Shown: in pieces, positions 1,007 to 20,229 of the stretch
Layout: each line of letters begins with the position of its first letter
Numbering within the stretch: the first letter of the stretch is position 1
Origin: Alphaproteobacteria bacterium
Lineage (GTDB): Bacteria > Pseudomonadota > Alphaproteobacteria > Bin95
Length of the DNA stretch: 61,273 nt
Direction of reading: 5' to 3'
NCBI GenBank assembly: GCA_022827685.1
Contig: JAJEIH010000001.1
Span: 1 to 61,273 of the forward strand
Notes under the pieces: generated by a model
What the model was told of the DNA's origin: nothing
The model's input: the letters and a program-made list of their open reading frames with translations, nothing else
Database searches by the model: none
Program-made: the position numbers and the translations under genes

Positions 1007-1061
1007 AAAAAACCCCTTCCCGACCTTCGGCGGCGCGGACGCGATCGAAGGCGGGAAGGGG
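1007..1061 (-). terminator. Intrinsic terminator, cassette copy 1
   Basis: On the minus strand a stem CCCCTTCCCGCCTTCG pairs with CGAAGGTCGGGAAGGGG across a GC-rich loop and is followed by six T (A-run at 1007-1012). It lies downstream of the gene ending at 1222. The right-hand arm is nearly identical to the cassettes at 1641, 2069 and 3015. Confidence 0.8.
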
Positions 1062-1221
1062 CGGCCGGCGGGGAGGACGCCGGCGTCTCCGAGCTGCTGA
1101 ATGCGGGTCTCGTTGCCGTCATGCCGGCCTTGGCGCCGGCAGGAGCGGTCCTCCCCGGGACAGCTGCATCGGCGAAGGCCGGCCCTGCGCGCGACAACCT
1201 GCCCCGCGCGGGGCCTTCTTG

Positions 1222-1581
1222 TCAGGCGAGGCTGGAGGACCCGTGGTACGAGCCGACGCGGCAGCCGGAGTAGTCGTGCCGGTCCACGTCGGGATAGCCC
1301 GAGGCCTTGCGACCCTCGAACAGGTGCCAGAGCCCCTCCTGGATCGCCCAGGCGGCCCAGCCGGCGCACCAGGTGTCGCCGCCGATCCGTCCCGACGCGA
1401 GGCGCCGGTGCTCGTCATAGGCCCGCTGCTTCACGCGGTTCGCTTTGGTGTGCTTCTCGCAGAGCACGGTGCCGGGGATGGCGGGGCTGCCGCAGCGAAC
1501 GCACAGCCCCTGCTCCTTGCGGAGGCGGTAGCGGCGCCGCGCGGCCGCCGCATTCGCCTTCTGCTTCTTGGTCTGCGCCAT
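1222..1581 (-). CDS. Small zinc-ribbon-like basic protein
   Basis: A 119-aa protein of unknown function. The N-terminus is very basic and rich in Lys, Ala and Arg (residues 4-22). A likely metal site follows, with CVRCGSPA spaced from CEKH (residues about 27-44). This pattern recurs in short phage and plasmid proteins. The ATG at 1581 was chosen over an in-frame upstream start because AGGAG sits about 9 nt before it. The C-terminal half is Gly/Trp-rich with no recognised domain. Terminator cassettes lie on both sides, so it appears to be its own transcription unit. Nucleic-acid binding is an inference. Confidence 0.7.
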   Translation of the reverse strand: MAQTKKQKANAAAARRRYRLRKEQGLCVRCGSPAIPGTVLCEKHTKANRVKQRAYDEHRRLASGRIGGDTWCAGWAAWAIQEGLWHLFEGRKASGYPDVDRHDYSGCRVGSYHGSSSLA

Positions 1582-1640
1582 GTGCGATATCTCCTGATCG
1601 AGGAACGGGAGCCGGACGGCCGCCCGCGGGAATCGCACCG

Positions 1641-1694
1641 AAAACCCCTTCCCGACCTTTGCGGCGTGGATGCCGTCAAAGGCCGGGGCAGGGG
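1641..1694 (-). terminator. Intrinsic terminator, cassette copy 2
   Basis: The minus strand reads CCCCTGCCCCGGCCTTTG, a loop, then CAAAGGTCGGGAAGGGG followed by TTTT. It starts about 19 nt after the stop codon at 1713, so it ends that gene. Confidence 0.8.
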
Positions 1695-1712
1695 GAAGAG
1701 GGACGCGCGGCG

Positions 1713-2012
1713 TTACCGGGACGCCTCCTCGAGGGCGCGCCCGAGCTCGGCGGCATGGCGGCGAAAGGCGCGGTCGAGCGCGTGCAGCACGATGCCGGCC
1801 TCGGGATGGTCGGTGGAGATGATCGAACTCTGCGCATCGATGCGGGCGACGAAGCCGCCTTCGGCGTCGTGCAGCCTCGCGCCCGAGGCCAGGCCGGCGA
1901 ACCGGAGCCAGGCCTGGACGCGGACGGCTTGCCGGGCGGCTTCATCGAGCCCGAGCCGGGGGCGCAGCTGTATTTCGCCGTGCGCATTGGGCCACTGGAG
2001 CGTGTAGGGCAT
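1713..2012 (-). CDS. Hypothetical 99-aa protein
   Basis: The protein begins MPYTLQWPNAHGEIQL and has no family I can name. It reads as a compact soluble alpha/beta protein: a strand-like start, an Ala-rich helix (DEAARQAVRVQAWLRF), a strand pair around DAEGGFVARIDAQ, and a C-terminal helix ending LGRALEEASR. The start at 2012 is preceded by GGGGAGAC. A terminator cassette follows it directly, and a lone copy of the cassette arm lies 57 nt upstream, matching the layout of its neighbours. No membrane segment or signal peptide is seen. Confidence 0.65.
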   Translation of the reverse strand: MPYTLQWPNAHGEIQLRPRLGLDEAARQAVRVQAWLRFAGLASGARLHDAEGGFVARIDAQSSIISTDHPEAGIVLHALDRAFRRHAAELGRALEEASR

Positions 2013-2068
2013 GGGACGGTCTCCCCGATGGTGGCGCCGCGAACCCCTGCGGTCCGCGATCTCGCGCC

Positions 2069-2090
2069 CGAAAACCCCTTCCCGACCTTT
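2069..2090 (-). repeat. Lone arm of the terminator cassette, copy 3
   Basis: The sequence on the plus strand is CGAAAACCCCTTCCCGACC plus TTT, identical to the arm at 1639-1660. The complementary second arm of the other copies is not present; the next hairpin-forming sequence (about 2104-2130) is unrelated. Confidence 0.7.
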
Positions 2091-2198
2091 GCGGAGGGAC
2101 CGGCCGGGCAACGCCGCTTGCCGGGAGAACGGCGGGCGGCGGCGCCCGGACAGCCACCAACAGAGGGAAGGCCGCAACGGTCCGGAACGGGGCGGCAG

Positions 2199-2229
2199 AA
2201 TCAAAGGTCCGAAAATCAGACCTTTGATT
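2199..2229. promoter_or_regulatory. Perfect 11-bp inverted repeat in gene-free DNA
   Basis: AATCAAAGGTC at 2199-2209 and GACCTTTGATT at 2219-2229 are exact inverted repeats around a 9-nt AT-rich spacer. The stretch 2096-2358 holds no gene I can support, so this is its clearest structured element. It could be an operator, a partition-like site or, read on the plus strand, a weak terminator (TTTT follows). Only the symmetry is observed. Confidence 0.5.
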
Positions 2230-2359
2230 TTCCGGCCGCGCCGGACGTCCCTGACGGCGTCCGGAGGACCGGAACTCCGGGGCGTATCGCGGGAGATCGG
2301 CAGCCGGGAAGCCGGCGGAAAGCCCGATGGCGGATCGATGCCGCCAGCGGACCGCCACG

Positions 2360-2393
2360 AAAAACCCCTCCCCGGCCTCGTGCCGGGAAGGGG
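2360..2393 (-). terminator. Intrinsic terminator after the coiled-coil gene
   Basis: The minus strand reads CCCCTTCCCGGC, a short loop, GCCGGGGAGGGG, then TTTTT. It lies 26 nt downstream of the stop at 2420. It is a variant of the cassette family with a shorter, cleaner stem. Confidence 0.85.
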
Positions 2394-2419
2394 CGGGAAC
2401 GGCGCCGGCAGGGAACCGG

Positions 2420-2938
2420 CTATTGCGCCGGGGGAGGCTCCGGCTGTTCGGTTGCAGGCTGCGGCGCCCCGGGGTAGTGGGCGCGGACGAAGCCGGCCAG
2501 CTCGCGATGGTTGGCGCGGTTCCCGGCGATGCCGGCGGCCAGGCGCTTCGTGACGGCCGACTGCCGCGCCTCGCTGGCTTCCAGATCTGCCTTCACCTCG
2601 TCGATCCGGGCACCGAGTGCCTTCTCAACCCTGTCGATCCGGTCCGTCAGGCGTTTTTCGACCCGGTCGATCCGATCCGAAAGACGTTTCTCGGTCGTTG
2701 CCAGGTCGGCCTTCACCTCGGCGATCTGTGAGGTCAGGCGCTGCTCCGTCATCGCAAGCTCCGTCCTGAAGCCTGCAATCCCGACGGTGAAGCGGTTGTC
2801 GAAATAGGTGATCATAGCGCCCAGAAACGTCAGGAAGGCGCCCAGCACGATGGCGATAGGCATGACCGCCTTCCAGCTGCCGTCACCGGGGAGGGCGCTG
2901 CGTTGCGGGGCCGGGGAAGGGGTTTCGGGAGAGGTCAT
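2420..2938 (-). CDS. Membrane-anchored coiled-coil protein
   Basis: A 172-aa protein. A Pro/Ser-rich cytoplasmic start is followed by one membrane segment at about residues 25-46 (VMPIAIVLGAFLTFLGAMITYF). A long amphipathic coiled coil follows (about 60-140) with repeated units of the type EKRLxDRIDRVEKxL. The tail is Pro/Gln-rich. The layout resembles the DUF1640/CCDC90-like and phage-island coiled-coil proteins. The start at 2938 was chosen because AGGAGACGAGG precedes it and the upstream frame overlaps a terminator. Function unknown. Confidence 0.75.
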   Translation of the reverse strand: MTSPETPSPAPQRSALPGDGSWKAVMPIAIVLGAFLTFLGAMITYFDNRFTVGIAGFRTELAMTEQRLTSQIAEVKADLATTEKRLSDRIDRVEKRLTDRIDRVEKALGARIDEVKADLEASEARQSAVTKRLAAGIAGNRANHRELAGFVRAHYPGAPQPATEQPEPPPAQ

Positions 2939-3014
2939 GGGCCTCGTCTCCTGTCCGTTGCGGAGTATGGGATCGGAACGCGCCGAAGGCAAGCCGCGCC
3001 CGCATCGACACGCC

Positions 3015-3041
3015 CGGCAAACCCCTTCCCGACCTTTGCCG
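3015..3041 (-). terminator. Terminator-like hairpin, cassette copy 4
   Basis: CGGCAAA and TTTGCCG form a 7-bp inverted repeat enclosing the cassette core CCCCTTCCCGACC. It lies about 70 nt after the stop of the Toprim gene at 3110. A T-run after the stem is weak, so termination is less certain than for copies 1 and 2. Confidence 0.55.
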
Positions 3042-3109: not shown

Positions 3110-4135
3110 TCAGCCGAACAGTCCCTGGGACGCGAGCCTTGCCCGGAACCGCGCGGGACCCAGCGCCAGCAGCTCGTCATTGGCGTCCTTCGCACGGGGG
3201 ACGATCCGGTCGAGCAGCAAGGCGGAGCCCGCATGTTCGCGGCAGAGCGCGACCCAGGCGTTCTCGCCTGCCAGGTCGCGGTCCTGGACGAGGGTCACGC
3301 GCCGGATGCCCGGGGGCAGGCCGACGCGGTGGACGCGCCCGGCGGAGATCGCGGCGGCGACGGCGATATCCCGGCGGCCGCCTGCGCCGAGCGCGCCGGC
3401 AATGGCGAGTGCATCCTCGACGCCTTCGGTCAGCACCAGGTGCCCCGCCGCGCCGGCGGGCCAGCGCACGGCGCCGGAGAACAGCCGCCCGCTGGTGCGC
3501 TTCGGGTCCGGGATCGGGGCCTTGCGCCCGTCATCGGCGAGGAATATCCGCTGCAGGCCCTCCAGCGTGCCGTCCAGCGCGCGGATCGGCGCGAGCAGCG
3601 CCGGCAGCTCGCATTTCTCGCCGTCCACCTGCACCCAGACATCGGGGCGGAAACGCAGCCCTGCGGCGCCGGCGTCCTCCAGGGCGAGCCCGCGGGCGGC
3701 GAGATAGCGCCCGGCCGGGTTGTCGGGCCGGACCGGCTCCGCGCCCGCCAGCACCCGTTCCAGGCCCTTCTGCGCATCGGGTGCGCCGTTCTGCCGGCGG
3801 GGCCCGCACCGGGGGCGCTCATATTCCGGCAGGGCGAGGAAGCGGCGCGCCTCGTCGGCCGCTTCTCCGATGCTGTTGCAGTTGCGCACGGCGCGGATCA
3901 GGTCGAGGGGCCTGCCCCGGTCCTTCGGGTTCGCCCAGTCCCTCCAGTATCCGCGCCAGCGCCCGGCCAGGTTGACCCGCAGCGACGCGCCCTCCTCGCC
4001 GGCCGTGCTGCCCACCTGCCAGTAATTGCCGTTCCGCTTGCCGTTCGGAAGGTAGTGCCGGCAGACCGCCTCGATATCGGCCGCCAGCATGGCGGACAGG
4101 TCCTTCAGGCTGTGGGTCGTCGGATCGGAGGGCAT
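3110..4135 (-). CDS. Toprim-domain primase-like protein
   Basis: A 341-aa protein of the DUF7146/Toprim type found on plasmids and prophages. A Toprim fold is supported by the EGVEDAL motif (residues 237-243), holding the catalytic Glu, and the DRD pair at 285-287. The N-terminal part (WQVGSTAGEEGASLRVNL, then WRDWANPKDRGRPLDLI) resembles the region preceding Toprim in phage primase/helicase proteins. No helicase domain is fused. The start at 4135 has GGGAGG a few bases upstream. In this island it is likely to act in element replication by making or handling primers; that role is inferred from the family. Confidence 0.85.
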   Translation of the reverse strand: MPSDPTTHSLKDLSAMLAADIEAVCRHYLPNGKRNGNYWQVGSTAGEEGASLRVNLAGRWRGYWRDWANPKDRGRPLDLIRAVRNCNSIGEAADEARRFLALPEYERPRCGPRRQNGAPDAQKGLERVLAGAEPVRPDNPAGRYLAARGLALEDAGAAGLRFRPDVWVQVDGEKCELPALLAPIRALDGTLEGLQRIFLADDGRKAPIPDPKRTSGRLFSGAVRWPAGAAGHLVLTEGVEDALAIAGALGAGGRRDIAVAAAISAGRVHRVGLPPGIRRVTLVQDRDLAGENAWVALCREHAGSALLLDRIVPRAKDANDELLALGPARFRARLASQGLFG

Positions 4136-4708: not shown

Positions 4709-6289
4709 TCATGCGCCGTCGGCGGCATGGCGGGCGATCAGGTCGAGGATCGCCGGGATGTCGGGGACCGTCTCGACCGCGACGCGTTCGGGGCCGTTCG
4801 AGGGGCGGATCCCGATGGCGGCGATCAGGTCGCGGACGGCAAGCAGGGCCTCCTCGCGCCGTTCGGTTCGCGGGCCATCGGGGACGGCGCCGCGAAACCG
4901 GGCGAGATGGTCCCGGACGAACGCTTCGATATGGAAGCCGGGAGGCGGCGGCGCCGTCGGCAGCCTGTCGAGCTCCGCGGACGCCTCGTTTCGCTGGCGT
5001 TCGAGATCGAGGAGGCGGTCGCGGATGCTCGCGGAGGGAATGCCGGCTTCGATGGCGGCGACCAGGCGGCCGATCCCGGCATTGGCCACCTCGGCCTGCT
5101 GGCGCAGCTCCCGGCGCCGCGCGGCGGTCTCGCGCTCGGACCCGGCGAACATGTCCCGCCAGTCGCGTTCGGGGGACTGCATCCATGCGAAGAGCTGTCC
5201 GACGGCGAGGCATTCCAGCTTCTCGCGCCGGATGCCCCTGTTGTTCGAGCAGCTCTCCGGGTGGAGGCGCCGGGTCTTGCAGCGATAGTGGCCGAGCCCG
5301 GCAATCACCAGGCGGGAGCCGCAGACGCCGCAGCGGAGCCTGGCCGTCAGCGGATAGGCGGCCTTGCGGCTTGGCGTCACCACGGCCAGGTGGCGCTTCT
5401 TGCGCCGCTCCAGCTCGTCCTGGACGGCGTGCCAGGTCTCGTCGTCCACGATCCTCATTCCGGGGGCTTCGGCAACGACCCATTCCTCCGGCGGAACGGG
5501 AACGGAGTGGCGCCGCCCGGTGACGGGATGGCGCCTGCTGCGGCTGCGGCCGTACACCAGCACGCCGCGGTAGATGTCGAAGCGGAGTATCCCGTTGCTG
5601 CCGCGCCCGCGTATGACCTCGGCGCTCCAGGGCTTGTCGTTGGGCCCGACGACGCCTTCCCGGTTGAGAATGCGGGCGATCTGCTGCGGGCTCATGCCGT
5701 CGAGGTAAAGCCGGTAGATGCGGCGGACCACCCCGGCCTCGTCGAGGTCGATCATCCGCAGGCCCCGGACGGCCTTGCCGCTTTCGGAGATGTAGTTGGC
5801 CATGCGGTAGCCGTATATGCGGTGCCCCATGACCCGGAGGTCGTGGAGGGCCTCGATCTGCCCCCGGCGCGTCTTGGCGCCGATATTGTCGATGACCATC
5901 TCGCTCACGGCCCCCTTGATATGCGCATGGAGGGAGTCGACCTGCCCGTCTTCCAGGCTGTGCAGGTCGATACCCAGGAACCGCAGTTCGCGGTAAAGCC
6001 ACGCCATGTCGGCGGTGCTCCTGGCGAGCCGGTCCAGGCCCTCGACGCAGACGCTGTCGAAACGCTGCGCGCGGGCATCCTCGAGCAGCTGGCGAAGCCC
6101 CGGGCGCAGCTGCATGGCCGTGCCCGAAAGCTCCGGGTCGGTGTATTCGTCCGCGATCACGCCGCCCAGATCGGCGACGCGGTCGCGGCAGAGGCGGAGC
6201 TGGCCCGAGATCGACGTCATCTCCTGCAGCGGCGAGGAATAGCGCGCATAGATCGCGAAGCGCGCAATGTCGGCGGTATGCCCGTTCAT
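4709..6289 (-). CDS. Large serine recombinase
   Basis: A 526-aa site-specific recombinase. The resolvase domain spans residues 10-150, with the catalytic motif YARYSS (nucleophile Ser18), DPELSGT at 51-57 and EGLDRLARS at 83-91. A recombinase domain follows, then a zinc ribbon with Cys320, Cys323, Cys337 and Cys347, and a coiled-coil segment around 370-430. Size and layout match phage and integrative-element integrases that act between attP and attB. The start at 6289 has ACAGG close upstream. It probably moved, or still moves, the island; I could not identify its attachment sites in the window. No truncation is visible. Confidence 0.93.
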   Translation of the reverse strand: MNGHTADIARFAIYARYSSPLQEMTSISGQLRLCRDRVADLGGVIADEYTDPELSGTAMQLRPGLRQLLEDARAQRFDSVCVEGLDRLARSTADMAWLYRELRFLGIDLHSLEDGQVDSLHAHIKGAVSEMVIDNIGAKTRRGQIEALHDLRVMGHRIYGYRMANYISESGKAVRGLRMIDLDEAGVVRRIYRLYLDGMSPQQIARILNREGVVGPNDKPWSAEVIRGRGSNGILRFDIYRGVLVYGRSRSRRHPVTGRRHSVPVPPEEWVVAEAPGMRIVDDETWHAVQDELERRKKRHLAVVTPSRKAAYPLTARLRCGVCGSRLVIAGLGHYRCKTRRLHPESCSNNRGIRREKLECLAVGQLFAWMQSPERDWRDMFAGSERETAARRRELRQQAEVANAGIGRLVAAIEAGIPSASIRDRLLDLERQRNEASAELDRLPTAPPPPGFHIEAFVRDHLARFRGAVPDGPRTERREEALLAVRDLIAAIGIRPSNGPERVAVETVPDIPAILDLIARHAADGA

Positions 6290-6392: not shown

Positions 6393-7136
6393 TCATCGCC
6401 GCGCGCGCCGCCATCCGGCCGCCCGGGCCTCGGCCTCGCTGCAGAACCAGCGCTCGCCCTTCGAGGCGTCGATCCGGGTCCGGTCGTAATGTTCCGCTCC
6501 GGGCATGTGGTAGATGCGGCCGTTGCGCGAGATGTTCCCCTTGATGGCGCAATTGCCGGTCCCGGGGATGGCCTGCCGCTGAGGCCGGGGGCTTGCAGCG
6601 CGGCGCCGTGCCTTCGCCTCGCGGCGCCAGCGCCAGGGCTCGACGAACTCTCCGGACCACAGGCCGAGGCCTTCGGCGCGGGCCGCATCCTCGTCGGCGA
6701 CATAGCGCGTGGAATAGCGACGGTAGGCCAGCGCCAGACCCTGCCGGACGAGCTGCTGCTGCAGGTCCCGGCCGGCCGCGTAGCATGCCGCGACCGCACG
6801 GCCGTAGCGGTCCCGGTCCCGGACCTCGCAGCGGACCGGGTCCCGGCCGACAAGGCGGCGCATGGCCTTCGTCGCGGCCCTTCCGCAGGCCCAGCGGCGG
6901 CCGTCGCGCGAGCAGGTCTGGCGGGTCTCGGGGGCGTCGATCCCGTGAAGGCGGACGCGCTGGCCGGCGACGGCGAACGTGTCGCCGTCCACGACCCGGG
7001 CCTTGCCGGAAAGCGTCTCGGAGGAGGCGGGCCAGGCGATACAGGCGGCAAGAATGGCGCCCGCCAGAAGCCGGCAGGCGCCTGGCCATCCCGGCCGGGC
7101 CTGCTCGCGAACCCGGCTGCCGGCGAAGCGCCTCAC
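6393..7136 (-). CDS. Exported thermonuclease-family (SNase-like) protein
   Basis: A 247-aa protein with an N-terminal hydrophobic export segment (residues about 19-38) and a staphylococcal-nuclease fold. VVDGDTF (48-54) supplies the calcium-binding acids and RLHGIDAPE (62-70) the catalytic Arg/Glu region; GLGLW lies near residue 155. A second small C-terminal module (about 190-240) with CAIKGNISRNGRIYHMPG is common behind such nucleases in alphaproteobacteria. The start is a GTG whose last bases overlap the TGA of the upstream gene (GTGA at 7133-7136), so the two are translationally coupled. Nuclease activity is expected from the family. Confidence 0.88.
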   Translation of the reverse strand: MRRFAGSRVREQARPGWPGACRLLAGAILAACIAWPASSETLSGKARVVDGDTFAVAGQRVRLHGIDAPETRQTCSRDGRRWACGRAATKAMRRLVGRDPVRCEVRDRDRYGRAVAACYAAGRDLQQQLVRQGLALAYRRYSTRYVADEDAARAEGLGLWSGEFVEPWRWRREAKARRRAASPRPQRQAIPGTGNCAIKGNISRNGRIYHMPGAEHYDRTRIDASKGERWFCSEAEARAAGWRRARR

Positions 7137-8017
7137 GGGACGGACCGGTCAGGCCGGTCGGGCGCATGGCCCGGGGCCGGGAGGAGGCGCCGGTGCTGGC
7201 GGCGCACCAGGATGGAGACGTAGTTGCTGCTGAGGCCGGTCCGGCGCGCGATCTCCGTCTGGGGAATGCGCAGGACGACAGCGAGATATATCCAGCCGTC
7301 GCGGGCCCGGTTGCGCTCCCGGCCGCGGCGTGCAGCGAAATCGGCCTGGCAGAGGCGGCCGCAAAACTGTCCGGAGGGGCGACTGGCCCGGGCGCCGCAG
7401 CCATTGGCGCAGAGCGGCCTTCGGGCTTCCTGGGCGGCGCGCATGCAGGCGGCGCTGCAGAACCGGCGCCGGCGGCGGGGCAGGGCCGCGGAACAGCCGG
7501 GCGCCTCGCAAATCCCGTCGCTCTCCCCTTCCAGGCCCTGCACGACATTCGAGACCGTCCTGTGGCTGACGCCATGAAAGGCGGCGATCTGCGCGAGCGG
7601 CCGGCCCGAGCGGGCTTCCGTCCGGATGCGGCGGTCGCGGGCGTCGTTGATGTCGGCCCAGAAGCCGCGGAGCGAGCGGCTGTAGCAGGCGCGCGAACAG
7701 AATATGCACGAGCTTCGCCGGACCTTGCCGCCGCACTCCGGACAGGTCGGCAGGCCCGAACGCCGCCAGGCCAGGAAGCAGTCGAAACTGCAAAAGCGGT
7801 TGCGGGTCCGGGGGACGCGGCGCGAGCAGCCGTCCCGGGCGCAGAAGCGGTCACATTGTCTGGGGCCGGCATGCCAGGTCCAGCCTTCGCGCCGTGTGAT
7901 GCCGTATACCGTGGAGACGGCAAGGCCGTGCTCGGCCGCGATCGAGCGGACCGATTGCCCGGCCGCCACCGCGCGGCTGATCGCGGCGTCGCGCTCGACA
8001 TGCCGGCGTCGGGGCAT
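7133..8017 (-). CDS. Multi-HTH, multi-zinc-knuckle protein
   Basis: A 294-aa basic protein that I cannot assign to a named family. Three helix-turn-helix-like segments are visible: residues about 10-45 (SVRSIAAEHGLAVSTVYGI), about 125-160 (PLAQIAAFHGVSHRTVSNV) and about 245-280 (PQTEIARRTGLSSNYVSIL). Between them lie four Cys clusters, three of the form C-x3/4-C-x11-C-x3-C ending in FCS or FCG, and one C-x2-C-x8-C-x2-C-x3-C. The units look internally duplicated and likely bind zinc. The first HTH is of the Hin/resolvase type. It is coupled to the thermonuclease gene by a GTGA overlap. DNA binding is a confident inference; the target is unknown. Confidence 0.8.
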   Translation of the reverse strand: MPRRRHVERDAAISRAVAAGQSVRSIAAEHGLAVSTVYGITRREGWTWHAGPRQCDRFCARDGCSRRVPRTRNRFCSFDCFLAWRRSGLPTCPECGGKVRRSSCIFCSRACYSRSLRGFWADINDARDRRIRTEARSGRPLAQIAAFHGVSHRTVSNVVQGLEGESDGICEAPGCSAALPRRRRRFCSAACMRAAQEARRPLCANGCGARASRPSGQFCGRLCQADFAARRGRERNRARDGWIYLAVVLRIPQTEIARRTGLSSNYVSILVRRQHRRLLPAPGHAPDRPDRSVP

Positions 8018-8045: not shown

Positions 8046-8582
8046 TCAGAACTGCGGCCAGTCATCGTCGAGCGGCGCCAGAACCCGGTCGATAGTTGTT
8101 TCCCCGCGGAAGCGGGGGATGAAACGGCCATCGTCGGTCCTTTCCGTGGCAGCGGCGTCCTCGTCCGCCTCCGGCATGTACGCCGCCGCGATCACTGCCG
8201 CGCGATTGTCGCTGAAAACCCGACGAAGCAGTTCAACGGCCCGCTCGCGCTTGCCCTCGCGAGCCATCGCCCGCAGACGTACCGCCAGCAGCGCGCGCAC
8301 GTCCTCGGCGAGACCGGGAGATGCATAGCCCCGGAAATTCATGTTGCGGGCAGCCTCCGACATCGCGCGGGCGATGGTGTGTTGCTGATACGCATCGAGC
8401 ACCAGGGATCGGGAGGCCGACGTCTTCGACGAAAGGTCCACGGTCAGGGCGCATTCCCGGAACCATGCCGAAGCGGACTTTCCGCGCTCCTTCGCCTGGG
8501 CCCGGATTTCGTCCCATTCCCTGTCGGTCAGCGAAATCGTGTGGTTCATGCCGGACGTCGTCTTGCGCGGCTTCTTCGTCAT
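8046..8582 (-). CDS. Par-operon paralogue, ribbon-helix-helix-like (copy 1)
   Basis: A 178-aa protein sharing its layout with the products at 8925 and 9383. A basic start is followed by SLTDREWDEIRAQAKERGKSASAWF, a pattern typical of ribbon-helix-helix or MobC-like proteins. Then come LVLDAYQQHTIARAMSEAA and a C-terminal helix pair ending VFSDNRAAVIAAAYMPE. The start at 8582 overlaps the stop of the gene at 8579 (ATGA). It has the longest tail of the three, ending in acidic and aromatic residues. Possible roles are auto-regulation, partition accessory or relaxosome accessory; no relaxase is in the window. Confidence 0.7.
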   Translation of the reverse strand: MTKKPRKTTSGMNHTISLTDREWDEIRAQAKERGKSASAWFRECALTVDLSSKTSASRSLVLDAYQQHTIARAMSEAARNMNFRGYASPGLAEDVRALLAVRLRAMAREGKRERAVELLRRVFSDNRAAVIAAAYMPEADEDAAATERTDDGRFIPRFRGETTIDRVLAPLDDDWPQF

Positions 8583-8911
8583 GCTCCGTCCCCGTCATGG
8601 GCAAGACACAGGAAGCGGACCGCCTCCCACACCGAGGCAACCGCTTCAACGTCTCCGGGACCGTGAACCGAAATCCGCCCCGACCGGAGAACGGTCAACG
8701 CGTCCTTGGCAAGGCGGCCCTGTTCGGCTTTCGCCAGCACGAGGGAGTGCCCGGGCAGCTCCGGCGCCCTGCCGGCTCCCTCGTCGGCCGCGCGCCTGCA
8801 GCACAGATAGCCGAAGCGCGAGATCGGCAGCTTCGCCTTCCGGGCCCGCCTGCGGATCCGCTCCCACTCATCGAGCGGGCCGTAGATGCATCGCTGTCTC
8901 GAAAGCTTCAC
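8579..8911 (-). CDS. Small RHH-like protein in par operon
   Basis: A 110-aa protein. A GTG start at 8911 is preferred because GGGAGGAG lies 7 nt before it; an ATG at 8953 would overlap the upstream gene by 29 nt and has no such site. The core LDEWERIRRRARKAKLPISRFGYLCC resembles the RHH-type region of its three neighbours but lacks their C-terminal VFGEERAAVI block. SLVLAKAEQGRLAKDALTVL is a second helix. It sits between copies 1 and 2 of the paralogue family and is coupled to the gene at 8046 by an ATGA overlap. Probably a diverged or shortened family member. Confidence 0.65.
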   Translation of the reverse strand: MKLSRQRCIYGPLDEWERIRRRARKAKLPISRFGYLCCRRAADEGAGRAPELPGHSLVLAKAEQGRLAKDALTVLRSGRISVHGPGDVEAVASVWEAVRFLCLAHDGDGA

Positions 8912-8924
8912 CCCGGCTCCTCCC

Positions 8925-9386
8925 TCATCCCCGGTTGTCGTGGGGGCGCTCACCCGGCAGCTCCGGCGTTGCCGGGGTTTCGGGCATGAACGCGGCCTCG
9001 ATCACAGCCGCACGCTCCTCGCCGAACACGGTGCGGAGCCCTTCGAGTGCCTCCTCCCGCCGTCCCTCCAGGACCATCGCCTCAAGCCGCTCCCGAAGCA
9101 GTTCCACGGCCAGTGCGCCGAAACGGGCAGACACTTCGTCATCCACGTCTTCGGCCAGCTCTCGCGCAACACGGGCAATGCGGCGCTGCTGCTCCTCGTC
9201 CAGGACCAGCGGCGGGGCGGCGGTTTTCTCCGGGGCCGACAGATCGACGGTCGTGACGCATTGGCCCCACCAGGCCGATGCCGACATGCCCGCCGCCTTC
9301 GCCCACGCCTTGATCTGGGCCCACTGAGCGTCCGTATAGGATACTGAGTGTCCCGTGCCCGGCTTGCGTTTGCGCGCCTTCTTCAT
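8925..9386 (-). CDS. Par-operon paralogue, ribbon-helix-helix-like (copy 2)
   Basis: A 153-aa protein closely similar in pattern to the products at 9383 and 8046: SYTDAQWAQIKAWAKAAGMSASAWW, then LVLDEEQQRRIARVARELAEDV, then LRTVFGEERAAVIEAAFMPETP. The start at 9386 overlaps the stop of the upstream copy (ATGA), and GGAGGA lies just before it. Conservation of the SASAW turn and the final VFGEERAAVIxAAF block across the copies suggests tandem duplication. No catalytic motif is seen. Function unknown; the position after parB suggests an accessory role in maintenance. Confidence 0.72.
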   Translation of the reverse strand: MKKARKRKPGTGHSVSYTDAQWAQIKAWAKAAGMSASAWWGQCVTTVDLSAPEKTAAPPLVLDEEQQRRIARVARELAEDVDDEVSARFGALAVELLRERLEAMVLEGRREEALEGLRTVFGEERAAVIEAAFMPETPATPELPGERPHDNRG

Positions 9387-9889
9387 GCGTCCTCCCTGAA
9401 CTCGGGGCGTCCGGCGTCATTGGTCCGGGCGGAGTTCGCGGCCGGCTTATCCTGCGTTGCCGACGGGGTTTCGGGTATGAACGCGGCCGCGATCACAGCC
9501 GCACGCTCCTCGCCGAAAACCTCCCGCAGCAACTCCATCGCCCGCGCCCGCCGGCCCTCCTGCACCATCCTCCGCAGCGGCTCCTCCACCAGCGCGCGAA
9601 TATGCGCCTGAAGGGACGCCACGCCGTCCGCATCCAGACCCACGGCCAGTTCCGCCATGGTATCGGCAATGGCGCGCTGCTTTTCCGCGTCCAGGACCAG
9701 CGGCTGCGGCCCCGGCCCCTTCGCCGACGGGTCCTCGTGCAACGCACACGAAACCCACCAGGCCGATGCCGACATGCCGGCCCGCGCCGCGCCCTCCCGG
9801 ACCAGTTCCCACTCCTCGTCGGTGCAGCAGATCGTGTGCGTCGCGCCCTTCTTGCTGCGCGCGCCCGGCCTTGTCCGCGTCTTCTTCAT
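9383..9889 (-). CDS. Par-operon paralogue, ribbon-helix-helix-like (copy 3)
   Basis: A 168-aa protein and the first gene after the parB remnant. Its start at 9889 overlaps the parB stop (ATGA). It carries the same blocks as copies 1 and 2: CCTDEEWELVREGAARAGMSASAWW, LVLDAEKQRAIADTMAELAVGL and LLREVFGEERAAVIAAAFIPETP. The N-terminus is strongly basic. Since it was coupled to intact parB, the IS insertion upstream may now reduce its expression. An upstream in-frame start (10033) exists but lies inside parB and has no support. Confidence 0.72.
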   Translation of the reverse strand: MKKTRTRPGARSKKGATHTICCTDEEWELVREGAARAGMSASAWWVSCALHEDPSAKGPGPQPLVLDAEKQRAIADTMAELAVGLDADGVASLQAHIRALVEEPLRRMVQEGRRARAMELLREVFGEERAAVIAAAFIPETPSATQDKPAANSARTNDAGRPEFREDA

Positions 9890-10379
9890 GTCCGTTCCTC
9901 TTCCGGCGAGGCGGCGCCGGCGCCGGGCCGTGCGCGCAAGGCTTCGATGAGCTGGCGGCGCTGGTGTCGGTCGATAAGCAAGCTGAGGAGTTCGAGTGCC
10001 AGGACTTGCTCGTGCTTGGGAATGGGGTGCCATGCCGCTTCCAGTCGAGCGAAGAGTTGCCCGCGTGTGGGTGGGCGGGCCGGCGCTGCAGGAGTTTCCT
10101 TCTGCAACAGGGCAGACAGTCGCTCGGGGGGCTCGTCGGCCTCGCGCAGACGCTGGAGGACGCGCTGTTGCCGGGCTTCCGAAAGGCCGGCGAGCCGGTA
10201 GAGATCGCCTTCCCGGCGGGCGATCGGGGTGCCTTGAAGCTCGTCCTGCAGTTCGGGCAGGATACGCTTGCCGATGCGCAGCGCACGCTCGACCGTACCC
10301 TTGGACATCGAGGTCAGATCTGCCGTCTCTTCGACAAACGAAGGGGGTGACGAAAAATCAAAACCTAAATTTTCGGTTT
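9886..10379 (-). pseudogene. parB: parB, 3' part, separated by IS1595 element
   Basis: This is the C-terminal 162 codons plus stop of the partition gene (from ENLGFDFSSPPSF onward), including the helix-turn-helix region ETADLTSMSKGTVERALRIGKRI. The fragment has no start of its own; a frame beginning inside the IS adds 25 foreign residues. Joining codon GAA at 13558-13560 to AAT at 10371-10369 restores an uninterrupted frame. The 8-bp sequence TTCGGTTT at 10372-10379 is the target duplication. A residual HTH-bearing polypeptide might still be made. Confidence 0.88.
10372..10379. repeat. 8-bp target-site duplication, left copy
   Basis: TTCGGTTT directly precedes the left inverted repeat and is repeated at 13558-13565 directly after the right inverted repeat. 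Eight base pairs is the usual duplication length for IS1595. Confidence 0.93.
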
Positions 10380-10404
10380 GGGGATTATATAGTAGTTTAC
10401 CCAA
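10380..10404. repeat. Left terminal inverted repeat of IS1595 element
   Basis: Begins GGGGATTATATAGTAG and ends TTTACCCAA. It pairs with 13533-13557 with three mismatches in the centre. Confidence 0.93.
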
Positions 10405-10418
10405 GGCGTTGACGGGAC

Positions 10419-10580
10419 CTATTCGGTCCCGCGCTCCCGTTTGAGGTAGTCCCAATCCTTCTTCGGCGGCCCGGCCATGATGGCGCGTGCGATATTCTCC
10501 GGCGTATCGGGTATCGGATCCGGCATGGGCTTCTCCACCGGCCGCCCGCGCGCCCGCTTCGGCTTGTCTTTGTCAGTCAT
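10419..10580 (-). CDS. Small IS1595 accessory ORF, 53 aa
   Basis: A short basic and Pro-rich protein (KPKRARGRPVEKPMPDPI, then ENIARAIMAGPPKKDW). The ATG at 10580 is preferred over one at 10604 because GGAGATC precedes it at good spacing. The upstream ATG overlaps the end of the methyltransferase gene, so coupling is likely. Small proteins with this KKxWxYL-type ending are, from memory, often found beside IS1595-type transposases. Its role is unknown; regulation of transposition is one guess. Confidence 0.7.
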   Translation of the reverse strand: MTDKDKPKRARGRPVEKPMPDPIPDTPENIARAIMAGPPKKDWDYLKRERGTE

Positions 10581-10600
10581 CGTGGGATCTCCGGTTTCGT

Positions 10601-12040
10601 TCATCGTCCTCGGGTCTCATGGGGCAGCTTCGCCCGCTCCTCGTCGAGGAACAGGCCCCAAGCCTTCGCCCCCTTGCGCCCGTTGCAGTTGCCGCAAAGG
10701 CCGATGCGGTTGAGCGCGTCGTTGTCTCCGCCGCGCACCTTCGGGATGCGGTGGTCAAGGGCAAGGTCCACCGCCCGAAGGCTCTCCGCGTCGCAGTAGG
10801 GGTTGGCGCACTGGCGCCCCTGCCGCGCCCATAGAGCCTGCCGCAGCTTGTCGTCCGGAATATTCGGGATGTCGGTCCGGCGAAGCGTCTTCCGCACCGT
10901 GACCGGCGTATCCACCATGTTGAGGCCGGTTTCGTCGGCAAGGCGGTCCAGCGTCACCCGCTCCGCCACCGGGTCAATGTCGATGCCGACCCACTGGCGC
11001 TGCAATTGCTCGGCGGCTACGCAGGTGGTCGCGCACCCCGCGAACGGGTCCAGCACCGTGTCGCCGGGGTCGGTCGCGCACTCGATCAGCCGCCGGTAGA
11101 GCGCAACCGGCTTGCGCGTTGCCCACTCGACATCGTTCGATTCCGCCTGCCCGACATCGCTCCAGATGTCATCGCGCTTCCGGCCCTGCTGCTCGTCGAG
11201 ATACCGCTTGAAGCGCGGAACGCGCCCAGGGGCGGCCTGAACGACGCGACCGGCGTCATGGGCCGCCTGCATACGCTCCCGCGTCCAGCGCCAGACCCGC
11301 GTCACGCCAAGAAACTCGTAGGTCAGGTTCGGACGGTTGCCTTCCGGATGCGTCAAGTTGTCGAGCTGGTAGCGTCTCCCCCCCCCCTCAATCTTGTCAT
11401 ATTGCGCCAGTGTCTTGGCGTCGAGATTGGCGAGGTCATAGGGTTCATAGGACGGGTTCCACTTCCACTTCCGACTCTTGCCGTAGGCGAACACCGTGTC
11501 GCTGTTGTTCGGCAGCCGCCGGGTCGGATAGCCCTTCGCGGTGGTCCGGCGGCGCGTGATTTCATTGATGAACAGCGCCCGTCCAAACACGGCGTCGAGC
11601 AGCAGCCGGAGATAGGCATTCGCCTCCGTGTCGCACTGGAGGAACAGAACGCCGGTCGGCTTGAGGACGCGGTGCATTTCGACAATGCGCGGGGCCATGT
11701 AGGCCAGATAGGCGGCGATGGAGTTCTTCGCCCCGGTGCTGACCCTGCCGGTGCGGTGGTGAACCCGGCCGCCCTCGATGACTGCCGCCGCCTCGATGAT
11801 CTCCTTGATCGCCGGATGGTCCGACGCGATGAGGTCCTGCCATTCGTCCGTCACCTCGTCCCAGCGCCAGCGGTCATCGAACCGCTGCGCGGCTGACCGG
11901 GAGCCGAGCGGCGCATTGAAGACGCGCTTGGCGTTGAACGGCGGGTCCGTCGCCACGCAGTCCACGCTCTCGCTGTTCATGCCGCGAAGGATGTGGATGT
12001 TGTCGGCGACGAACAGCGACCGGTTGCGCCAGTTGGTCAT
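10601..12040 (-). CDS. DNA methyltransferase fused to HNH domain
   Basis: A 479-aa protein. The catalytic motif DPPF is at residues 32-35 and the SAM-binding motif DPFAGCATT at 331-339. This order (IV before I) defines beta-class amino-methyltransferases acting on adenine N6 or cytosine N4. A C-terminal HNH module follows: CANPYC (411-416), DHRIPKVRGG (429-438), then LCGNCN (448-453), fitting a zinc-bound HNH nuclease. The start overlaps the transposase stop (ATGA, 12037-12040), so it is co-transcribed as IS cargo. It could act as a self-contained modification and cleavage enzyme, or the HNH may be structural. Specificity cannot be read from sequence. Confidence 0.9.
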   Translation of the reverse strand: MTNWRNRSLFVADNIHILRGMNSESVDCVATDPPFNAKRVFNAPLGSRSAAQRFDDRWRWDEVTDEWQDLIASDHPAIKEIIEAAAVIEGGRVHHRTGRVSTGAKNSIAAYLAYMAPRIVEMHRVLKPTGVLFLQCDTEANAYLRLLLDAVFGRALFINEITRRRTTAKGYPTRRLPNNSDTVFAYGKSRKWKWNPSYEPYDLANLDAKTLAQYDKIEGGGRRYQLDNLTHPEGNRPNLTYEFLGVTRVWRWTRERMQAAHDAGRVVQAAPGRVPRFKRYLDEQQGRKRDDIWSDVGQAESNDVEWATRKPVALYRRLIECATDPGDTVLDPFAGCATTCVAAEQLQRQWVGIDIDPVAERVTLDRLADETGLNMVDTPVTVRKTLRRTDIPNIPDDKLRQALWARQGRQCANPYCDAESLRAVDLALDHRIPKVRGGDNDALNRIGLCGNCNGRKGAKAWGLFLDEERAKLPHETRGR

Positions 12041-13020
12041 GCCACCGGCCTTGCGCCGGAAGGCAGTCCGTTGTCCGCAATGAGGTCCCGATACCGCAGC
12101 CGCTTCCCGGCCATGCCGCCGGCGATGGACCGCATCATGTCCAGCGTGTCGAGGGACCGGATGTTGTGCCGGCCTGCGGCCTCGGCAACATAGAGGTCGA
12201 GGTGCTTCTCGCTGAACTTGTGGAAGACGCCGACGAAGCTGCGTTTGAGGCCCGACCAGAAGCTCTCCATGCCGTTCGTCGAGGCCATGCCCCGCACGAA
12301 CTCCTTGGCGGAATGCTTCACCGACTCATGGGCGTATTCGGGCATTCCAGCGTAGGCCGGCGCTTCGTCGGTGTAGAGCGTCGCGCCGGGCTCGACATGC
12401 GCCCGCACGAAGGACTGGAGCGCGCTCGCGTCGGTTGCCTCCATGCGGCGGGCCGCAACGCGATTGCTCGCCCGGTCCTTCACGCCCGCGACGGCCGCTT
12501 TCCCCACGGCCCCGCGTCCCGTCCCGGCGAGCTCTTTCCGCTTCCGGTTGCTCATGTTCTTGCGCTTGCCGCCGATGTAGGTCTCGTCTGCTTCCGCCGG
12601 GCCGGTGAACATCGCCGCCTTGTCGGTCCATGTCTCCCGGATGCGGTGCGCCAGATGCCAGGCCGTCTTCTGCGTCACCCCAAGGTCGCGGTGGAGCTTC
12701 ATGCTCGACACGCCCTTGAGGTTCGTCGAGCACAGGAAGATGGCAATCGCCCAAATCTGGAAGCCGAGCGGCGAGGAATGCATCAGCGTGTCGGTCTTGA
12801 CGCTGAAATCCTTCCGACAGTCCCGGCAGCGGTAGGGCTGCGGCTTGCGCGTCTCGCGCTCCTGAATGTTGACCGACCCGCACTTGGGGCAGCACACGCC
12901 TTCCGGCCAGCGCGTCTTCACGAACCAAGCCTCGGCGGTCTCATCGTCCGGGAACATCCGCGTCAGGTCCACGAAGGTCATGCCCTTGCGGAAGTGTTTG
13001 CCGGGAGCGTTGCGAGCCAT
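12037..13020 (-). CDS. IS1595-family transposase
   Basis: A 327-aa transposase of the IS1595 family. An N-terminal zinc ribbon is formed by Cys44, Cys47, Cys65 and Cys68. The catalytic core has ADETYIGGK (Asp145), LYTDEAPAY (Asp218) and the block TNGMESFWSGLKRSFVG, whose Asn249/Glu252 region supplies the third residue, followed by AEAAGRHN. All motifs are intact. AGGAGG lies before the ATG at 13020 and a good promoter lies upstream. Its stop overlaps the methyltransferase start. Confidence 0.95.
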   Translation of the reverse strand: MARNAPGKHFRKGMTFVDLTRMFPDDETAEAWFVKTRWPEGVCCPKCGSVNIQERETRKPQPYRCRDCRKDFSVKTDTLMHSSPLGFQIWAIAIFLCSTNLKGVSSMKLHRDLGVTQKTAWHLAHRIRETWTDKAAMFTGPAEADETYIGGKRKNMSNRKRKELAGTGRGAVGKAAVAGVKDRASNRVAARRMEATDASALQSFVRAHVEPGATLYTDEAPAYAGMPEYAHESVKHSAKEFVRGMASTNGMESFWSGLKRSFVGVFHKFSEKHLDLYVAEAAGRHNIRSLDTLDMMRSIAGGMAGKRLRYRDLIADNGLPSGARPVA

Positions 13021-13044
13021 TTCCTGCCTCCTGATTACGGAAAC

Positions 13045-13073
13045 AGATTACCCCAATGCGGCGTTGCCGGCAA
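13045..13073 (-). promoter_or_regulatory. Sigma-70-type promoter for transposase operon
   Basis: On the minus strand TTGCCG (13073-13068) and TAATCT (13050-13045) are separated by exactly 17 nt. The transposase start is about 25 nt downstream of the -10 box. It lies in the gap between the divergent IS genes. Confidence 0.7.
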
Positions 13074-13120
13074 GAGGAAAATGGGTAAAATGCAGAAAAA
13101 ATCACGCTGCCGGAGTCGCC

Positions 13121-13540
13121 ATGTTGGACCATCAGCCGCCGCCGGAATGGGTCCGGGGCCGGGCCGAGTGCAATCTCGACATGATCTTCGACGCGCTGCA
13201 TCAGATCGTCCAGCGCGACGTGAAGCAGTTCAATGAACTCTACGACCGGCAGCGGCAGGGACGGCGGTTTCAGGTCCACGAAAACGGCGGCGGCTGCGAC
13301 CCGTCCTTCCGGGTCGTGCTCGATGCGGATATGGACCGGCCGCCGCAGGTGGTCTTCCGGCTGTCGCGGTCGGCGATCCTCATCAACGGCGGCGGGCAGA
13401 TATTCAATGTGCGCCCGGAATGGGACGGGAAACGCTGTCGGCTGAGCGTTGGCGAGCGGTCTTACAGCGAGCCGTGGGAAATCAGCCAACTCGCGCTGGC
13501 CGGGTTCCTGTTCGGGCCAGCCGATGAGCCGCTTGGGTAA
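13121..13540 (+). CDS. IS1595 accessory protein, 139 aa, divergent
   Basis: The protein begins MLDHQPPPEWVRGRAECNLD and has a helical first third followed by beta-rich sequence (FQVHENGGGCDPSFRVVLDAD, VVFRLSRSAILINGGG). I recognise no family. The ATG at 13121 has GGAG 7 nt upstream. It is transcribed away from the transposase. Its last codons and stop lie inside the right inverted repeat (13533-13557), so it evolved as part of the element. Its role is unknown. Confidence 0.75.
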   Translation: MLDHQPPPEWVRGRAECNLDMIFDALHQIVQRDVKQFNELYDRQRQGRRFQVHENGGGCDPSFRVVLDADMDRPPQVVFRLSRSAILINGGGQIFNVRPEWDGKRCRLSVGERSYSEPWEISQLALAGFLFGPADEPLG

Positions 13541-13557
13541 AGTGGTATATAATCCCC
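13533..13557. repeat. Right terminal inverted repeat of IS1595 element
   Basis: Reads TTGGGTAAAGTGG and then TATATAATCCCC; inverted match to 10380-10404 at 22 of 25 positions. It overlaps the end of the plus-strand accessory gene. Confidence 0.93.
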
Positions 13558-14136
13558 TTCGGTTTTGATTTTCTCCTGGTATTCCAAACTCTTACGGTCG
13601 CCGCCATGGCGGGCTTCCGGGTACAGTTTGTTGCGGAGTTCCTCGCGCCTGGCAACGAAGCGGGCGCGGTGAAGCGGCGTGAGTTCCGAGCGGATCAAGT
13701 TCTCGTCGACCTCGACCAAGGCGATCTCGTCCGGGCTCGGATCGTCGAGCACGAAGGCCTCGATCCGGCCCCAGCCGAGCTTCTTCGCGGCCTCGATCCG
13801 GTGCCGTCCCGCGACCAGCGCAAAGCCGCCCTCGTCCAGGCCGCGGTCGTATTCGCCGGTCTCCGGATCGATCCCGAAATTGTGGCGGACCTGGATCGGG
13901 TTCTGAAGGCCGATCCGGTCCATCGACTCCGTGAGGCGGGCGACCGCTTCATCGTCGACCTCGCGCAGGCGCGGCCCGATGCGGATCTGCTCCAGGGCGA
14001 TCGGCCAGGTGCTCCGCTGGCGGGCCGTCGAGGGGTCGAACCGGGACGCCGCTTCGGCCGCCTCGGGGTTGCGGCTGCGCCAGTCCTGGAGACGGTGGAT
14101 GAGCGCGCCGCCCCCGCTGTTTGCGCGGCCGCTCAC
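13558..14136 (-). pseudogene. parB: parB, 5' part, interrupted by IS1595 element
   Basis: These are the first 193 codons of the partition protein, starting at a GTG whose bases overlap the parA stop (GTGA at 14133-14136). It holds the ParB N-terminal domain: LEQIRIGPRLREVDDEAVARL, the motif AGRHRIEAAKKLGWG, and DENLIRSELTPLHRARF. Reading through into the IS adds a foreign tail and stops at 13462. With the IS removed, the frame continues into 9886-10371 to give 354 residues. TTCGGTTT at 13558-13565 is the right target duplication. Partition by this pair is probably lost. Confidence 0.9.
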
Positions 14137-14810
14137 GCCGCCATCCTCATGTTGCTGGCGGGCCAGGCGAGCAGCGCCTCGGTCACGGCGCGGATCTCCG
14201 TTGCGGCCCGGCCCCCGGGCTCGGCCTCGACGACGCTCTCGCCGGCCCGGGCGGAGCGGATGAACGCGACGCGATGGCGGACGGCGGCCGGCAGGAGCTG
14301 CGCGCCTTCGCCGGCAAGCAGTTCCCTTGTCCCGGCCTCCCACTCGGCGGACCGTGTCGGGACGGCGTTGAGCACAGCCACGGCCCGCGTCCGGGCTGCG
14401 GCCGCCACATCGAGGCTCGCGCGGATCGCGGCGAGGTCGAACACCGACTGCCGGCAGGGGACCACCACAAGGCCGGCATGGCGCGCGCCGGCGACCGGGC
14501 CTCCGTCGGCGCCCATCGCCGTGTCGATCAGGATAAGGTCGGAGCCCCGGCCCCGGGCTCGATCGATCTCATGCTCCAGGCGCAGCGACGGGCAATACCG
14601 GACCTCCGGGGCCGGCTCGTCGCGAAGGTCGGCCCAGATGACGGCCGAGCACTGGGGGTCGCAGTCCAGCACGGTGACGCGCCGGCCGGCCTGGGCCGCG
14701 ACCACGGCAATGTTCAGCGCCAGCGTCGTTTTCCCGGCCCCGCCCTTCTGGCTGACGAAGGCGAGGATGCGGGGCGCCGCAAAGGCGGCGGAGTGCGAAT
14801 GGTCAGGCAT
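14133..14810 (-). CDS. parA: ParA-type partition ATPase
   Basis: A 225-aa ATPase from the start at 14810, which has AAGGGAG upstream. The deviant Walker A box QKGGAGKTT is at residues 21-29, the Walker A' region VLDCDPQ at about 48-54, and the Walker B-like LILIDTA near 95. ParA positions plasmid or chromosome copies with ParB. The frame is open for 126 further codons up to an ATG at 15188 that is coupled (ATGA) to the upstream gene, so a longer 351-aa form with an unknown N-terminal region is possible. It overlaps parB by GTGA. The family is certain; the start is not. Confidence 0.88.
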   Translation of the reverse strand: MPDHSHSAAFAAPRILAFVSQKGGAGKTTLALNIAVVAAQAGRRVTVLDCDPQCSAVIWADLRDEPAPEVRYCPSLRLEHEIDRARGRGSDLILIDTAMGADGGPVAGARHAGLVVVPCRQSVFDLAAIRASLDVAAAARTRAVAVLNAVPTRSAEWEAGTRELLAGEGAQLLPAAVRHRVAFIRSARAGESVVEAEPGGRAATEIRAVTEALLAWPASNMRMAA

Positions 14811-19095: not shown

Positions 19096-20229
19096 CTATA
19101 GCCTTTCGGCCGGGCTGAAGGGACGGCGCTGGCCGGCCGCCTCCATCAGCGGCATGACCTCCTCGATCCACTGGCGGCACTCGCCGAGATAATCCACCCA
19201 GGAGAGCAGCAGCCCGTCCACGCCCATGTCCGAAAGCCGCTCCAGCTCTTCCACAATGTCCTCCGGCGCCCCGACCAGCGGATAGCCGCCATGGCCCGCC
19301 TTGAAGTGGAAGCGGAAGGCGTCCATCACCGCCGGCTCCAGGGTGCCGGACTGCACCCCGAAGATGTCCAGCATGTTGGCGACTGCCACGTCGTCGCCGC
19401 GCTCCACGACATAGTGGTGGAGATAGTCTTCGGCCTCCTGCCGCGTCGGACGGCAGACGACATAGCCGTGGATCCAGCATTGCGAGGAGCGCCCGAGATC
19501 GGCGGCCATGGCCTTGAGACGGGCGATCTGCGCGCGGTCGCTGCCCTCGTCCTTCTGGCGCAGCATGACGAAATTCATGTCGGCATGGGCGGCGGAGAAT
19601 GCCTGTCCGGCGGAGGAGCTGCCGGCGTTCATGATCGGCGGCCTCGGGCGCTGCAGGGGCTTCGGCTCGCTCCAGAGCGCCCTGCCGCTGAAGAAGCGCC
19701 CGTCGAGGTCGAAGGGTTCCCGCTCGCTCCAGAGGCGCTTCACCAGCGAAAGCCATTCCTCGGCATAGGCGTAGCGGTTGTCATGGGCGCGCATTTCGAG
19801 GCCGAACATGTCGAACTCGTTCTTGAACCAGCCGGCGACAAGGTTGAGCGCGAAGCGCCCGCCCGAAATATGGTCCACCGTCGCGCCCATCTTGGCGGCC
19901 GCGACCGGGTGGACCAGCGGCGCGTGGACGGTCGAGAAGACGGTTGCGTGCGCGGTCTCGGCCGCGATGCCGGCCGCCCAGGTCAGGCTCTCGAAGGTCC
20001 GGTTGTTGAAATCGGTCTCGCCGCCATAGCCCTTCCAGCGCCCGACCGGCAGCAGCGCCTCGAAACCGGCGGCGTCCGCCATGCGGGCGAGCGCCCGGTT
20101 GTCCTCCCAGGTCATCGGCCAGGCGCCGTCCGCCGTCGTCACGGTGGAGCCGTGCGAGCAGTTGAACGCCATCACGCCGAGCTTGATGCGGTTGTCGTTG
20201 AAGAGCGGACTCCGGACGGTGTCGTTCAT
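19096..20229 (-). CDS. LLM-class flavin-dependent monooxygenase
   Basis: A 377-aa bacterial-luciferase-like TIM-barrel protein of the RutA/SfnG-type group. Typical segments are IKLGVMAFNCSHG at the start, DNRALARMADAAGFEALLPVGRW, THATVFSTVHAPLVHPVAAAKM-like barrel sequence near residue 95-110, ISGGRFALNLVAGWFKNEF, and SSSAGQAFSAAHAD. These enzymes use FMNH2 (or F420 in some branches) and oxygen to open or cleave organosulfur or N-heterocyclic compounds; the substrate here is unknown. Its start overlaps the stop of the CoA transferase (ATGA), and the SnoaL-like gene follows, so the three form an operon. Confidence 0.88.
   Translation of the reverse strand: MNDTVRSPLFNDNRIKLGVMAFNCSHGSTVTTADGAWPMTWEDNRALARMADAAGFEALLPVGRWKGYGGETDFNNRTFESLTWAAGIAAETAHATVFSTVHAPLVHPVAAAKMGATVDHISGGRFALNLVAGWFKNEFDMFGLEMRAHDNRYAYAEEWLSLVKRLWSEREPFDLDGRFFSGRALWSEPKPLQRPRPPIMNAGSSSAGQAFSAAHADMNFVMLRQKDEGSDRAQIARLKAMAADLGRSSQCWIHGYVVCRPTRQEAEDYLHHYVVERGDDVAVANMLDIFGVQSGTLEPAVMDAFRFHFKAGHGGYPLVGAPEDIVEELERLSDMGVDGLLLSWVDYLGECRQWIEEVMPLMEAAGQRRPFSPAERL

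Follow-up and report, generated by a model that had tools for sequence, protein, structure and literature searches.

The locus raises the question of what is done by a protein, P0001, that combines three helix-turn-helix (HTH) segments with four cysteine clusters in a single chain of 294 amino acids, and of whether such a protein belongs to any family already described. Its gene is an ATG-initiated open reading frame with homologues, on the minus strand at 7133..8017 of the window (by which we mean the whole stretch of 61,273 nucleotides that was analysed), and its architecture may be written HTH-Z-Z-HTH-Z-Z-HTH, each Z being a putative zinc cluster with four cysteines (Cys4).

Reading from the N-terminus, HTH1 (residues 8-44; 7886..7996, minus strand, as for all P0001 features below) is delimited by Pfam HTH_28 at residues 12-43 and by AF2 helices, and is followed by two clusters evident from the sequence and alignment, Z1 (residues 59-80; 7778..7843; C59-x4-C-x11-C-x3-C80) and Z2 (residues 92-111; 7685..7744; C92-x2-C-x11-C-x3-C111). 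HTH2 (residues 126-161; 7535..7642; Pfam HTH_23 at 136-162, AF2) precedes the second pair of clusters, Z3 (residues 170-191; 7445..7510; C170-x4-C-x11-C-x3-C191) and Z4 (residues 203-223; 7349..7411; C203-x3-C-x11-C-x3-C223), both again evident from sequence and alignment and the latter also from AF2, and the chain closes with HTH3 (residues 235-275; 7193..7315; HTH_24 and Sigma70_r4_2 at 245-272, AF2). HTH_23 matches P0001 with E=8.5e-12 over three stretches, the best being 136-162, and other Pfam HTH models match at 9-43 and 242-273. In 100,000 shuffled versions of the sequence, three or more Cys4 clusters never occurred, against four in the real protein. The three HTHs and four clusters of the original prediction are thus borne out, and the C-x3/4-C spacing it gave for the clusters describes Z1, Z3 and Z4, with Z2 departing slightly as C-x2-C. 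It also had HTH and Cys units alternating along the chain, which is too simple: the clusters come in pairs between the HTHs, an order that stems from internal duplication.

Residues 1-122 align to residues 123-294 with a Smith-Waterman score of 148 (maximum in shuffles 63, or 75 with cysteines held fixed), and hhalign relates unit 1 to unit 2 at 99.1%; together these scores show that P0001 is an internal tandem duplication of an HTH-Z-Z unit. An AF2 model built from seven sequences has a pLDDT of 78.8 overall, with domains at about 80-93 over most of the length, and a pTM of 0.34, such that the domains themselves are confident and their relative placement is unreliable. Tri-helical HTHs are modelled at about 2-43, 121-160 and 237-278, one helix follows each Cys4 cluster, and unbroken helices run from Z2 into HTH2 (109-136) and from Z4 into HTH3 (221-248). 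The protein is strongly basic (pI 11.4, 56 Arg). Given this anatomy and charge, P0001 very likely binds DNA, and its Cys4 clusters are predicted to bind zinc; the earlier suggestion of a repeat-built protein that reads several DNA sites is likewise backed, as a likely prediction, by the modelled structure, the duplication and the charge.

Three genomes, all from a single alphaproteobacterial genus, hold seven further copies, at 92% identity in G002, 66-68% in G006 (two copies) and 49-65% in G001 (four copies); loci of the same sequences from a scan of GTDB contigs bear Alphaproteobacteria MAG titles. The HTH cores and almost every cluster cysteine are kept among these seven homologues, down to about 50% identity, one of them (L007, within the set from G001, G006 and G002) lacking the first Cys of Z1. 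Conservation among the domains is highest in HTH1 (mean pairwise identity 78%), and dN/dS among relatives is 0.32-0.54, values which indicate purifying selection on the gene. A sample of 384 further genomes from the class yielded no relative, and the P0001 profile detected none in 397 other genomes sampled across the phylum. Close homologues were also absent from the plasmids, phages, IMG/VR sequences and GTDB contigs outside the genus that were sampled, in searches with the reach of close relatives.

The gene sits in an integrated mobile element, whose genes lie on one strand in the order ParA, ParB, sometimes a DUF5131 protein, P0001, SNase, large serine recombinase, a small protein and a Toprim protein. 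In the window, domain matches and neighbourhood comparison place the ParA-type ATPase at 14133..14810 and the Toprim_3/DUF7146 protein at 3110..4135 (both minus strand). Three tandem NikA-like paralogues occupy 8046-9889, against a single NikA-like gene in the 92% relative (L009), and no relaxase was recognised near them.

Immediately downstream of P0001 is a gene for an SNase-type nuclease (6393..7136, minus strand; Pfam SNase 7.7e-19) with an N-terminal signal-like segment and a C-terminal 'sunset' domain (6393-6545, minus strand; NCBIfam NF051437, 1.9e-13). Its GTG start overlaps the P0001 stop by 4 bp (GTGA), which suggests translational coupling. The original prediction had linked P0001 to this apparently exported nuclease, and in the window the link stands by virtue of the overlap; an SNase gene also follows P0001 in all relatives, either adjacent or two or more genes further on. 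Tight coupling is nevertheless not constant, since two or more genes intervene in L009 and L010, and more distant SNase and recombinase pairs of the same genus (L038, L040, L041) occur without P0001. The recombinases of those pairs therefore do not need P0001, which is a frequent and not an obligatory part of the element.

The more telling partner of P0001 is the large serine recombinase (4709..6289, minus strand; Resolvase, Recombinase and zinc beta ribbon domains in Pfam). Relatives of this enzyme at 63-96% identity are encoded in L009, L010 and L011, and a same-strand serine recombinase lies downstream of the P0001 homologue in every relative whose contig reaches so far (these three, L013 and L014). 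The L014 copy, from G001, is cut short behind HTH2, although its neighbours are a recombinase and an SNase that is intact. Beside the element in L013, a caiB-like gene at 3-353, 91% identical to residues 19-132 of the window's copy, breaks off, possibly marking the insertion site; the window copy (20226-21404) is intact.

As to family, full-length P0001 matched only HTH models and weak fragments in Pfam, NCBIfam and PHROGs, and we found no description of the cassette in the literature. The MYM-type zf-FCS domain (PF06467) was rejected at 8.0 bits against a cut-off of 22.4 (E=3.5). The PDB yielded nothing significant in a profile search with A1, the alignment of the P0001 family, and a fold search with the P0001 and single-unit models gave no match below 0.001, a result that carries no information on fold novelty; the fold matches listed for P0001 were to single HTHs only, and single HTHs resemble those of the resolvase/Hin type.

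A relationship emerged from the consensus Z1-Z2-HTH2 segment of the P0001 family, which weakly matched a 133-amino-acid Oscillospiraceae phage protein consisting of one full HTH-Z-Z unit. That protein belongs to PHROG 2308 (1.8e-49), an uncharacterised family of about 133 residues whose members are annotated as hypothetical, as zinc-finger proteins or as 'RNA polymerase subunit sigma-70', and relatives of this phage family occur in 142 phage records and also in IMG/VR. An alignment of 37 such phage proteins (A2) is collinear with A1 over the HTH, Z1 and Z2 (hhalign 97.8%, residues 11-114 against 7-129), with a score of about 81 compared with at most 19 for column-shuffled controls and at most 30 with the Cys columns fixed. 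Single-sequence matches are weaker: the A2 HMM scores E=0.28 (Z=10000) on P0001 itself and 5.6e-07 on its relative L003, and PHROG 2308 matches a fragment of the P0001-family consensus partially, at E=0.015. A single phage unit modelled with AF2 (pLDDT 86) has the same elements in the same order. One apparent match of A2, PDB 8vd6 ('CAP REPEAT', E=9e-14), was discarded because its chain is repetitive and aligns through the HTH only, weakly and five times over, at about 11 bits per repeat.

PHROG 2308 and P0001 thus share the order HTH, Cys4, Cys4 over the whole unit, and both often have serine recombinases nearby. They differ in that the phage protein is one unit of about 133 residues whereas P0001, at 294, comprises two units and an extra HTH; in an invariant Cys that closes the HTH in PHROG 2308 and is absent from P0001; in a near-invariant WW after Z1, of which P0001 has one W; in the C-x4-C form of Z1 in P0001; and in the placement of P0001 in an alphaproteobacterial element with an SNase between it and the recombinase. 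Because the two differ in length, in number of units and in a pair of conserved features, and because the single-sequence matches are weak, P0001 is not filed in PHROG 2308; the apt description is a duplicated homologue of that family. Searches for single-unit intermediates in Alphaproteobacteria gave none that was convincing, the matches being to the HTH only. The expectation that no named family has the P0001 order holds for the curated libraries, but the HTH-Z-Z unit itself is already widespread, though unnamed, among phages. What is new here is the doubled form, together with its having no characterised or curated family.

Two further resemblances concern the zinc clusters, and each brings an alternative with it. 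The consensus Z1-Z2-HTH2 fragment matches the HNH endonucleases of PHROG 1271 at 5.3e-10 through a tandem Cys4 pair, and the best viral fold match of the P0001 model is an HNH protein (E=1.2e-4). Natural relatives match the PHROG 1271 profile at 171-259 only, the part before the HNH, so that the zinc pair alone and not the duplicated HTH-Z-Z is shared. Zinc-cluster pairs also precede nuclease-like domains elsewhere (L138, 4968-5618; L140, 1181-1963). P0001 might then be a nuclease-less derivative of the targeting domain of a phage HNH (homing-type) enzyme, one that binds target DNA and marks it for, or competes with, the SNase or HNH nucleases. We consider this improbable, given that Pfam detects no HNH or other nuclease domain in P0001. 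The long, conserved duplication is a further argument against such an origin, as is the signal-like N-terminus of the SNase, with which that enzyme would act outside the cytoplasm. P0001 is neither an HNH enzyme nor a zf-FCS member.

The second resemblance is to the treble-clef proteins YacG and DUF2116, with which the phage single unit shares a C-x2-C ... FCS-x2-C cluster and a helix after the last Cys. YacG is a binder of GyrB with one such cluster and no HTH. Its match to Z1 of the phage unit is weak (Pfam E=2.9e-4; Foldseek 4tma, probability 0.89), yet it raises the idea that the P0001 clusters contact protein or RNA, as in gyrase binding by YacG or mRNA binding by Com, instead of setting the spacing on DNA. 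A precedent is the zinc protein Com of Mu, a binder of mom mRNA (PMC6483171). This too seems a poor prospect for P0001, in which Pfam finds no YacG match and whose three HTHs indicate DNA.

The gene company of the single-unit phage family bears more directly on function. Proteins of the HTH-Z-Z type are encoded directly upstream of serine recombinases in phages of Streptococcus, Lachnospiraceae, Oscillospiraceae, Gardnerella and Corynebacterium. Among 88 IMG/VR loci, a biased set drawn by similarity to two queries and including near-duplicates, there are 38 in which a serine recombinase, usually as a tandem pair, is encoded 121-215 bases downstream and in the same orientation. In annotated phages, the corresponding cassette consists of holin/lysin, HTH-Z-Z, a small protein (with SHOCT_2 in the one tested) and serine recombinases. 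By eye, a protein of L135 (4767-6251), encoded behind two serine recombinases, fuses a zinc pair to a segment that resembles this SHOCT-like small protein, a frequent occupant of the place between HTH-Z-Z and recombinase genes. A further 46 of the 88 loci have no recombinase near, and the next long open reading frame in 34 of these has a DNA-methyltransferase-like motif, in keeping with a second cassette of annotated phages, comprising HNH, HTH-Z-Z and a DNA methyltransferase.

That the unit is linked to large serine recombinases in three phyla speaks for a part in integration or excision, and our leading interpretation, to which we assign a probability of about 0.45, is that P0001 binds DNA sequence-specifically, is stabilised by zinc and controls the serine-recombinase integration module of its element, either through transcription or as an accessory at the att site. 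A small HTH-Zn-Zn unit would have been doubled in tandem with a third HTH retained C-terminally; every HTH would lie in a major groove, with the zinc clusters and the long Z2-HTH2 and Z4-HTH3 helices fixing the spacing between HTHs, such that a single chain could span two or three spaced half-sites. Integration or excision would then be controlled via the recombinase encoded downstream, by transcription or, if P0001 acts as an accessory or directionality factor, by binding to the att region; it is the neighbourhood that points to the recombinase as the target.

The methyltransferase cassette makes a more general regulator possible. P0001 may regulate transcription of the element at large (its partition, mobilisation or replication operon) and adjoin the recombinase through a shared position at the end of an operon. 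It is in line and on the same strand with the ParA, ParB and NikA-like genes, its HTHs resemble those of sigma-70 region 4 and of Mor/late activators, about half of the single-unit phage relatives adjoin DNA methyltransferases instead of recombinases, and SNase/recombinase pairs exist that do without it. However, position alone hardly explains why HTH-Z-Z recurs beside serine recombinases in Firmicutes, in Actinobacteria and in an alphaproteobacterial genus, and we regard general regulation as a tenable but rather unlikely account.

Control of the recombinase could be taken further, to a speculative proposal that we hold as doubtful: HTH-Z-Z proteins would be accessory or directionality factors of large serine recombinases across phyla, and P0001 a fused two-unit clamp on two or three att half-sites. 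The likeness to recombination directionality factors, as an element-encoded accessory near a recombinase, is a lead drawn from position. To our knowledge, none of the known directionality factors of serine integrases are HTH-zinc repeats, and the directionality factors and regulators of large serine recombinases are not known to have a sequence in common, which makes them hard to recognise. A recognisable small HTH-Zn-Zn family beside such enzymes, in Firmicutes, Actinobacteria and the alphaproteobacterial element, supplies a testable candidate class of partners, and the doubled P0001 illustrates how the unit may evolve into a longer, multi-site binder.

Two other features of the window were observed. 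Iterated terminator-like repeats AGGTCGGGAAGGGGTTTT occur on the minus strand at 1008, 1640, 2070, 2360 and 3017, mostly a short way upstream of minus-strand genes, with eight copies in L011 and two in L010. As operators for P0001 the repeats at 1008-3041 were rejected, since on the minus strand they read as hairpins followed by T-runs, like intrinsic terminators, and since several P0001 loci lack them. Finally, an IS1595-family transposon at 10380-13557, bounded by terminal inverted repeats of 26 nt and an 8-bp target duplication TTCGGTTT, carries as its passenger a DNA methyltransferase that has an HNH at its C-terminus, and splits parB into halves at 13462-14136 and 9886-10455.
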